Shown: positions 14,667 to 17,160 of the stretch, in pieces
Position numbering within the stretch: the stretch's first letter is position 1
Layout: every line of letters starts with the position of its first letter
Origin: Actinomycetota bacterium
Lineage (GTDB): Bacteria > Actinomycetota > AC-67
Direction of reading: 5' to 3'
DNA: 35,407 nucleotides
Assembly (NCBI GenBank): GCA_040905475.1
Contig: JBBDRM010000074.1
Coordinates: forward strand, 1 to 35,407
Program-made: the position numbers and the translations under genes
Notes under the pieces: model-generated
The model's input: the letters and a program-made list of their open reading frames with translations, nothing else
Databases searched by the model: none
Told to the model about the DNA's origin: nothing

Positions 14667-16301
14667 TCAGGTCAGGTCGTGTTGGTAGGCGTAGGCGGTG
14701 GCCGCTGCCCTAGTCGAGACCCCCAGCTTGGTGAAGATGTTGCTGATGTGCCGGGCCACGGTCTTCTCGCTTAGCACCAGCTCGGCGGCGATCGCCCGGT
14801 TCGTCTTGCCGGCCGCGACCAGCCGGAGCACTTCGATCTCGCGAGCGCTCAGCCCACCCGCGGCCTTCGGCTCCGACGGCTTCGAAACCTGATCCAGCCA
14901 GGAAAGCGCCGGGGCGGCGCCGAGCTGCTGAAAGGTCTTGCGGGCCGCGGCGAGCTCGAGCTCTGCGCCGTCACGGTCGCCGAGCGCCCGGCACGCGAGC
15001 CCGATCAGGACCCGGACCCGGGCGGCTTCGTAGGGCGCTTCGATCTCCTGCCAGGTGGTCCAGGCGGGACGAAGCGCGCCGAGCGCGCCCCGGGCGTCGC
15101 CTTCGCTCAGGAGGACGGCCCCGTTCGCGTGTGCGGCTACCGCGCGCAGGAGCGGCGCGGTGAACAGGCCTGCGATGGTGGCCAGCTCGTCCGCGGAGGC
15201 CCGGGCTGCGGCGACGTCGCCGGACGCCAGCATGATCTCGACGTGAGCCGGCAGGATCTTCGACTTCGTCATGGGATCCTGAGCCTCGTCGACCTCGCGT
15301 CGGATCGATGCTGCGGCGGCGTCCAGCTGTCCCCGTGCCAGGCGGAGCAGCGCAAGACCGGGCTGTGGGGAGCGTCCCGATTCGCTCGCTTGCCGGTACG
15401 CCTCCTCGGCCTTCTTGTAGTCGCCGCGCAGCCGGTGGATCTCGCCGAGCTGGAAGTAAGCGTCCCCAACCGCCGGAGTAGGCGGTTCGGAGAGCCACTT
15501 CTGCGCGCGATGTGCTTCGTTGATCGCGTCGAGCCACGAGCCGTGCAGTTGCATGATCTCGGAGCGATGGACGAGACACTGACCACGGAACGGGACCAGG
15601 TCCGGCTGCGACTCGCACCACCGGCTCAGGGCGGCCGTCCATTCTTGCGCCCGGCGGATATCGAAGATCCTGTGACAGGCGTCGATAACGGCGCAGTAGA
15701 TGAGCCCGGCGATGAGCGGGGATACCTCGCCGGCCATGACCGCGACCATGGCGTCGTCGTGCAACGCCACGCCTTCGTCGGCCCGTCCCAACATCATCAG
15801 CGCCTGGCCCCGGCCGAGTCGTCCAAGTGCGATCAGGTCGGGATCGGCGAAACGCTTTGCGATCTCTGCGATCTGCAAGAACGTCTCGTGCGCGCTTGCA
15901 GGGTCCCCCCCGAACATCGTTTGCAGCGCGATCGGCAAGAGTAAGAAACCCTGCTCCACGCACTCGGCGCCTTCGTCGTCGAGGACGCGCCTCGCGCGGG
16001 TGAACCAGCCGCCGGCCTGGGCGATGTCGCCCTTGTCCATCAGCGCCATGCCCATGTGGTACGCGCACCGAGCAGCCTTCTGCGGTTCGCCTCCGCCGAG
16101 GAATGCTTGATGCGCGCGGGCCCAGATATCGATGCTTTCGGCGTCCCGACCGATCAAGGCGGCGGCCGTCGCGAGCAGGTCGAGATCTGCGCCCTCGAGG
16201 GCGGCCACCGCGTCCGCGGCCGACAGCTGCGCGTGTGCGTCTCCCCACGCGTGACGTGCGAAGGCCGCCCGGCCGAGATCGAGCGCCTCGCTCGTGATCA
16301 T
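14667..16301 (-). CDS. LuxR-type transcriptional regulator with TPR-like sensor region
   Basis: This 544-residue protein has a long all-helical N-terminal part of TPR-like repeats (for example AARCAYHMGMALMDKGDIAQAGGWF and AYFQLGEIHRLRGDYKKAEEAY) and a C-terminal LuxR/GerE HTH at about 482-540 (LSAREIEVLRLVAAGKTNRAIAAE, then SEKTVARHISNIFTKLGVS). It lacks the P-loop ATPase of full-size LAL/MalT regulators, so it resembles the ATPase-less branch. It probably senses a partner or ligand through the repeats and controls nearby genes, with the monooxygenase immediately downstream as the obvious candidate (inference). No Shine-Dalgarno is seen before the ATG at 16301. A TATGGT hexamer ends 9 nt upstream, which suggests an almost leaderless transcript. 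Confidence 0.88.
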   Translation of the reverse strand: MITSEALDLGRAAFARHAWGDAHAQLSAADAVAALEGADLDLLATAAALIGRDAESIDIWARAHQAFLGGGEPQKAARCAYHMGMALMDKGDIAQAGGWFTRARRVLDDEGAECVEQGFLLLPIALQTMFGGDPASAHETFLQIAEIAKRFADPDLIALGRLGRGQALMMLGRADEGVALHDDAMVAVMAGEVSPLIAGLIYCAVIDACHRIFDIRRAQEWTAALSRWCESQPDLVPFRGQCLVHRSEIMQLHGSWLDAINEAHRAQKWLSEPPTPAVGDAYFQLGEIHRLRGDYKKAEEAYRQASESGRSPQPGLALLRLARGQLDAAAASIRREVDEAQDPMTKSKILPAHVEIMLASGDVAAARASADELATIAGLFTAPLLRAVAAHANGAVLLSEGDARGALGALRPAWTTWQEIEAPYEAARVRVLIGLACRALGDRDGAELELAAARKTFQQLGAAPALSWLDQVSKPSEPKAAGGLSAREIEVLRLVAAGKTNRAIAAELVLSEKTVARHISNIFTKLGVSTRAAATAYAYQHDLT

Positions 16302-16356: not shown

Positions 16357-16653
16357 CTATCGACGCGCGCGACCGCGGGAGGCTTTGGAAAGTGCGGTCA
16401 TCAACCGGTCGTACCGCTGCTCGAGTTCCTCGACGCGTTTCATCAACGCCGTGACCTCTTTGCTCCGCCCACGATAAGGGCGAACGAGCGAGCGTCGCTG
16501 AAGCTCACGCTTCGAAGCGACGTTGTGCCGGGAGCTTCGGTGCCGGCCGAGACCCATGGGATGCGCGGCCTTGAATCCGCACTCAGGACAGATCAGCCCC
16601 TTCGAGCTGGACCGACCAGTGGAACGACGGGATGCTTTCTGTTTGGTCGCCAT
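16357..16653 (-). CDS. Small bacterial C2H2 zinc-finger protein with C-terminal coiled coil
   Basis: This 98-residue protein starts with a very basic Ser/Arg/Lys tail (1-20). A single finger follows, with Cys22-X2-Cys25-X12-His38-X4-His43, exactly the eukaryotic-type C2H2 spacing. A basic linker (RELQRRSLVRPYRGRSKE) leads to a C-terminal helix with heptad-like spacing (EVTALMKRVEELEQRYDRLMTA without a break), ending in another basic tail. It should bind nucleic acid and probably dimerise through the helix. It is unlike the Ros/MucR group, which has shorter finger spacing. No Shine-Dalgarno is present. TTGCTC-N17-TAGCCT ends 8 nt before the ATG, so the mRNA is probably leaderless. It lies 55 nt upstream of the LuxR/TPR gene on the same strand. 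The function is unknown. Confidence 0.8.
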   Translation of the reverse strand: MATKQKASRRSTGRSSSKGLICPECGFKAAHPMGLGRHRSSRHNVASKRELQRRSLVRPYRGRSKEVTALMKRVEELEQRYDRLMTALSKASRGRARR

Positions 16654-16661
16654 GGTTCGAC

Positions 16662-16690
16662 AGGCTAAGACCTCGTCAAACGTTGAGCAA
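16662..16690 (-). promoter_or_regulatory. Leaderless promoter of the zinc-finger gene
   Basis: Read on the minus strand, TTGCTC (16690-16685), a 17-nt spacer and TAGCCT (16667-16662) end 8 nt before the ATG at 16653. With the usual 6-8 nt from the -10 to the start point, transcription would begin at or next to the start codon. No ribosome-binding site is present, which agrees. Confidence 0.55.
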
Positions 16691-16758: not shown

Positions 16759-17160
16759 TCAGACGACGCTCAAATGAGCCACGCTGGGGCGGCTCTGTTG
16801 GAACGGTCCCGAGAAGCAATCCGGGCTCGAGTACGCCCACGCCTTCACCGTGTATTGGCCCGGAGCGTAGGACCACGTGAGCTCTTGCGTCGCGGGCACT
16901 CCCGGCGGATCCTCTGGATCACAGGCGAGGAGGAGCCAGACCATCGCTCCGTCACCGAAGTCGACCGCGATCTCGGTGATGTGGCCTTCCGGATCAACGG
17001 CATCGACCCGGATCAGATATTCGGCGTTCCGTCGAGGGGTCGATTCCGAGGTGAGGGTCGCGGTGACTTTGGTGCGCGGCGGTGCGTTCTTCTCGCGCGC
17101 CTGGGCTGAGGCGCCCGGCACCAGCATCACGACCAACAGCATCAGTGCAGCACGTCTCAT
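16759..17160 (-). CDS. Small secreted protein with PKD-like fold
   Basis: This 133-residue protein begins with a clear Sec signal peptide (MRRAALMLLVVMLVPGASAQA, probable cleavage after the final Ala). The mature part has a VDFGDG motif and a YAPGQYTVKAWAY strand, the two hallmarks of PKD/immunoglobulin-like domains, plus two Cys that could form a disulfide. The ATG at 17160 with GGAGGGG in front of it is preferred to an in-frame start 24 codons upstream, because the signal peptide begins here. PKD-like domains usually bind proteins or glycans at the cell surface. There is no catalytic domain, so a binding or structural role outside the cell is the most one can infer. It lies between the zinc-finger gene and the DUF4173-like membrane protein. 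Confidence 0.75.
   Translation of the reverse strand: MRRAALMLLVVMLVPGASAQAREKNAPPRTKVTATLTSESTPRRNAEYLIRVDAVDPEGHITEIAVDFGDGAMVWLLLACDPEDPPGVPATQELTWSYAPGQYTVKAWAYSSPDCFSGPFQQSRPSVAHLSVV

Follow-up and report, generated by a model that had tools for sequence, protein, structure and literature searches.

A small basic actinobacterial protein with one classically spaced C2H2 finger and a putative dimerisation helix

Bacterial C2H2 zinc-finger biology rests mainly on the Ros/MucR proteins. Against this background, a small actinobacterial gene raised the question of whether a C2H2 pattern with eukaryotic spacing constitutes a real finger in a bacterial protein and, if it does, what such a protein might do. 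The gene lies in a stretch of 35,407 nucleotides, referred to below as the window, whose host was placed in Actinomycetota by nine matches to WhiB, an actinobacterial protein. Classical fingers of Pfam family PF00096 are rare in prokaryotes, having been recorded in only 59 proteins and about 3% of genomes (PMC7017128), and in a survey of actinobacterial integrative elements the genes given for Frankia elements include one for a 'zinc finger - C2H2-like protein' (PMC3218068).

The encoded protein (MATKQKASRRSTGRSSSKGLICPECGFKAAHPMGLGRHRSSRHNVASKRELQRRSLVRPYRGRSKEVTALMKRVEELEQRYDRLMTALSKASRGRARR, translated from the minus-strand open reading frame 16653-16357) consists, in order, of a basic N-terminal tail, one C2H2 finger, a short helix, a putative coiled-coil helix and a basic C-terminus. 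It carries a net charge of +20 and has a pI of 11.8, in keeping with the basic tails given in the preliminary description of the locus. Its ligands are arranged as C22-PE-C25-X12-H38-X4-H43, that is, C-X2-C-X12-H-X4-H. A six-frame search for C-X2-C-X12-H-X3-5-H returned a single match in the window, and shuffling the residues of the protein reproduced the pattern in 7 of 200,000 trials. The features are collected in Table 1.

Table 1. Features of the finger gene and its surroundings in the window.
Feature	Position	Strand	Residues or length	Remarks
Basic C2H2 protein gene	16357..16653	minus	98 aa	ATG at 16653; stop ends at 16357
C2H2 finger	16525..16590	minus	22-43 (C22, C25, H38, H43)	CCHH invariant in four homologues; predicted beta-beta-alpha model; mostly synonymous divergence
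Conserved V-x-S-x-R-[EQ]-L motif	16498..16521	minus	45-52	Start of predicted linker helix 48-56
Putative dimerisation coiled coil	16363..16461	minus	65-97	Helix in model; heptad spacing in four homologues
Possible leaderless promoter, TTGCTC-N17-TAGCCT	16662..16690	minus		Ends 8 nt before the ATG; read by eye
TPR-LuxR (MalT-like) regulator	14667..16301	minus		Pfam GerE and TPR; begins 55 nt downstream of the finger gene, same strand

One alternative is that the open reading frame is spurious and its C2H2 pattern a product of chance. The frame is short and its GC3 of 0.69, the lowest in the window, is low for the genome; all 6,236 equal-length segments taken from 14 other window genes lie above this value. 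The homologues, however, refute this explanation and leave it next to no probability. Two paralogues occur in the same genome, on contigs C41 and C32 (45-52% identity), and a third homologue (43% identity) occurs in G138, a genome from another class of the phylum. Both cysteines and both histidines are kept in all four proteins, the finger region contains 20 invariant columns out of 38, and the nearly fixed core reads CP[ED]CGF[KQ]AAHxxGLGRHRxxRHxVxSxRxL, with the reservation that conservation statistics drawn from the four members found are thin. Beyond the finger, V45, S47, R49 and L51 are likewise unchanged throughout the alignment. Over the 30 codons that begin with the first Cys and extend to the R-[EQ]-L motif, pairwise comparisons gave 12-17 synonymous and 3-9 non-synonymous codon differences, and strong DNA similarity between the loci was confined to the coding region. 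This pattern demonstrates purifying selection on the finger. Because two paralogues and a homologue from another class keep the four ligands while differing mostly at synonymous positions, we conclude on these comparative grounds that the gene family, a rare and unnamed one, is real and that the finger is not accidental. The preliminary description had named loss of the cysteines and histidines in homologues as the mark of an accidental finger; no such loss was seen, and its assignment of a classically spaced C2H2 finger is backed by this conservation as well as by structure prediction.

AlphaFold2 predicted a basic, disordered N-terminus for the window protein, followed by a finger of beta-beta-alpha topology (pLDDT about 88), a short helix at residues 48-56 and a helix at residues 65-97 (pLDDT about 92 along most of it). 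With the G138 protein as query, the model contained the finger and one continuous helix, 46-93. A beta-beta-alpha finger, for which the preliminary description had called for a model, was thus predicted for two members, with block pLDDT values of about 86-90 in the finger and up to 93-97 in the C-terminal helix, though both models were built on one four-sequence alignment and are mutually dependent. The pTM of both was low (0.37-0.38), and therefore the models do not fix how the parts are arranged with respect to one another. The nearest folds in the PDB, as found by Foldseek, were eukaryotic C2H2 fingers (EEA1, ZNF473, TFIIIA and others), with a weak best E-value of 0.29, none of the matches being significant, and TM-scores, normalised to the target, of up to 0.81. 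Weak Foldseek E-values are expected for a fold of 25 residues. We read these matches as agreement of predicted topology and not as proof of homology.

The coiled coil suggested by the preliminary description was also borne out at the level of prediction. In addition to the modelled helix, core residues in the C-terminal helix are spaced 4-3-4-3-4 in all four homologues, with the pattern L-[VI]-L-x-L-L (L70, V74, L77, Y81, L84 and L88 in the window protein), and a weak profile match to the leucine zipper of CREB (E 0.13) fits such a structure.

No significant or above-cut-off family match was obtained in Pfam, NCBIfam, PHROGs or PADLOC scans. Zinc-finger matches in Pfam all fell below the cut-off, including zf-H2C2_5 for the window protein (E=0.19) and zf_C2H2_ZHX, the best zinc-finger match of any member (E 0.0049). 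A different possibility is a small RNA- or ribosome-binding protein in which the finger and the basic tails would recognise structured RNA, the coiled coil serving for dimerisation or for contact with a partner. The size of the protein, its pI of about 12 and its CPxCG-containing finger resemble those of small zinc proteins, and weak profile matches were found to archaeal HVO_2753-like small zinc-finger proteins (9fhl, E 0.045) and to ribosomal protein L37ae (1ffk, E 0.12). Neither match is significant, however, and both are largely confined to the first half of the finger; moreover, the sporadic, island-linked presence of the gene is unlike that of a ribosome-associated factor. We consider this explanation unlikely.

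That presence is sporadic indeed. Confident carriers numbered 2 of 397 sampled genomes of the phylum, 12 candidates having been scored per genome for most of them. No member of the family was found in the host's own class (the other four genomes), in that of G138 (26 other genomes) or in a large class (395 genomes, again with 12 candidates scored per genome for most); a scan of genome contigs used a single sequence as query. Several candidates were rejected. A match from Bacteroidales (L007) belongs to a different protein, a 190-aa open reading frame in which only the CPECGFK-containing segment matches; those weak matches from the phylum that were inspected among L009-L021 are not family members; and L033 lacks a finger. 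The family f26 proteins (L034, L035, L036 and L040) share only a finger-like segment, CPDCGFVAxTPPGLAAHRRTC, at their ends. These last, around position 1503, are open frames of 1,600-1,950 aa that form one family of the phylum and all bear this tail.

The surroundings of the four copies differ. The C41 copy is flanked by a glycosyltransferase gene and a GNAT gene, the C32 copy ends a same-strand run comprising HsdM, HsdS, HsdR and a PHP/SMC-type protein (PADLOC 'Ppl', TrlF-like; L041:7530-15999), the G138 copy adjoins an rve-domain transposase, and the window copy is surrounded by ordinary chromosomal genes. DNA of the C32 locus is 53-60% GC, compared with 64-68% outside it, and an IS110-like transposase, named by inspection, lies nearby. 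Because the C32 copy ends a restriction island and the G138 copy adjoins a transposase, the gene has the look of cargo that moves horizontally; its sporadic presence, low GC3 and mobile neighbours suggest horizontal spread of the gene, and the window copy in particular may have arrived in this way. Two further genes in these regions may be recorded here: a 500-aa, low-GC3, partly masked gene without a Pfam or PADLOC match near the G138 copy (L043:1410-2912) and, upstream of the window's finger gene on the same strand (16759-17160), a small putative secreted protein without a Pfam match. The C32 finger gene could, for its part, belong to a defence island as a companion gene not yet characterised.

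Two alternative functions bear directly on these neighbourhoods. The protein could be a regulator derived from a mobile element or prophage, for instance of islands or transposition, and since kept in host genomes. Two of the four copies are found near insertion sequences or within a low-GC island, and the GC3 of the window copy is low, which speaks for such an origin; yet searches of 50,697 phage records, of 72,556 plasmids and of viral contigs turned up no relatives, on which ground a phage origin was rejected, and the window copy sits in an ordinary chromosomal setting. We regard a mobile-element regulator as decidedly improbable. A protein-protein adaptor, whose finger and coiled coil bind a defence or regulatory partner instead of nucleic acid, is quite improbable too. 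In its favour, lone C2H2 fingers can act as protein-protein modules, and the best structural match is the finger with which EEA1 binds Rab5, taken from their complex, which we count against nucleic-acid binding; the C32 copy, moreover, is preceded by restriction and PHP-SMC genes on its own strand. Against this, all four members are very highly charged (net +18 to +22, pI 11.8-12.0), their neighbours are not conserved, leaving no fixed partner visible, and the zinc-finger protein has no PADLOC family match.

The same comparison bears on the LuxR gene, whose position the preliminary description had put forward. The finger gene does lie directly upstream of it on the same strand, and read-through into it is possible, but the implied link between the two was not supported: the paralogues adjoin other genes, and the LuxR-TPR gene at the C41 locus is split from the finger gene by the glycosyltransferase gene and is only 30% identical. 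The adjacency is not conserved, and a partnership with LuxR is thus unsupported. As for the leaderless promoter claimed for the finger gene, compatible boxes, read by eye, occur not only in the window but also before the C41 paralogue (TAACCT, 7 nt from the ATG) and the G138 homologue (TANNNT, 6 nt from the likely GTG start), whereas the C32 paralogue is preceded by an ordinary GGAGGAG leader and a strict sigma-70 promoter scan found nothing. A leaderless start of the window gene is plausible only.

Taking these observations together, the reading we favour, and to which we give about an even chance, is that of a small, stand-alone, strongly basic nucleic-acid-binding protein, dimeric and of low specificity, that would serve as a regulator or a local architectural protein and whose gene would be accessory and horizontally spreading. 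The C-terminal helices of two chains would pair into a coiled coil, and the resulting dimer would present two zinc-stabilised beta-beta-alpha fingers together with two disordered lysine/arginine-rich tails. Each finger with its basic flanks would bind DNA with low specificity, such that the dimer could occupy two sites or bridge them. Zinc binding, dimerisation, nucleic-acid binding and any regulatory outcome are all put forward here as what sequence and models lead us to infer. We would tentatively favour DNA over RNA on the precedent of classical fingers and on the geometry of paired fingers. The gene would be an accessory one, spreading horizontally, and not one for a core nucleoid protein. 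The small nucleoid-associated or RNA-binding factor suggested by the preliminary description is plausible, though a core role in nucleoid architecture is unlikely, as the distribution is patchy and at least two of the four loci are horizontally acquired or lie by a transposase.

If this reading is right, so compact a bacterial protein, eukaryotic in its spacing and equipped with a dimerisation helix of its own, would make it possible to test in a minimal system what a lone classical finger achieves without tandem repeats, and the family would add a data point to the question of whether classical fingers arose in bacteria or were acquired by them. Given that neither Pfam nor NCBIfam covers it, present annotation would probably label the protein hypothetical.

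How, then, does the protein compare with known systems? It resembles the H-NS-like bridging proteins (Lsr2, H-NS, MvaT) in idea only, being a small protein with a putative oligomerisation helix and a putative DNA-binding part; it shares no domain with them, and its gene is sporadic. The Pfam scan gave no match of the window protein to the Lsr2 domain (PF11774), and Lsr2 was found in none of five genomes of the class, including the host's own, by a search that does find it in a Corynebacterium control. A simple replacement of Lsr2 is ruled out, as Lsr2 is missing class-wide, also from genomes without the finger gene, and its absence from the host genome carries no weight for the same reason.

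SUPERMAN (with its QALGGH motif) and the GAGA factor are single-finger eukaryotic factors with basic flanks. The window protein likewise has one finger that basic residues may help, and its MGLGRH aligns with QALGGH, but this resemblance is by eye only and gives no sign of common descent. With the classical eukaryotic C2H2 fingers (PF00096; EEA1, ZNF473, TFIIIA) it shares the C-X2-C-X12-H-X3-5-H spacing, the predicted beta-beta-alpha topology, the conserved helix leucine (here L35) and its best fold matches. It differs from them in being bacterial, in having a single finger that falls below all Pfam cut-offs, in placing the core aromatic at C25+2 (F27) and not at C25+4, and in its helix motif, xGLGRH.

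A functional parallel may exist with Ros/MucR, small bacterial proteins that also combine one C2H2 finger with an oligomerisation region, putative in our case. In Ros the ligands C79, C82, H92 and H97 follow the spacing C-X2-C-X9-H-X4-H, and in the Ros/MucR proteins, AT-rich DNA binders termed H-NS-like, the zinc-finger domain is C-terminal and oligomerisation N-terminal (PMC9779718). Here, in contrast, the spacing is X12, as the preliminary description had noted in setting this finger apart, and the order is reversed, with the finger first and the coiled coil last; the larger zinc-finger domain with an extra helix belongs to Ros/MucR. Pfam and NCBIfam scans gave no match of the window protein to the Ros/MucR family, and ligand spacing and domain order rule out membership in it; nonetheless, from outside that family the protein may act in a similar manner. 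It is thus conceivable, though we hold the idea only tentatively and think it rather doubtful, that these four proteins represent an undescribed family in which one eukaryote-spaced finger and a coiled-coil dimer would bind or bridge DNA, and that this family, borne by horizontally moving islands of Actinomycetota, parallels Ros/MucR and the H-NS-like proteins independently.
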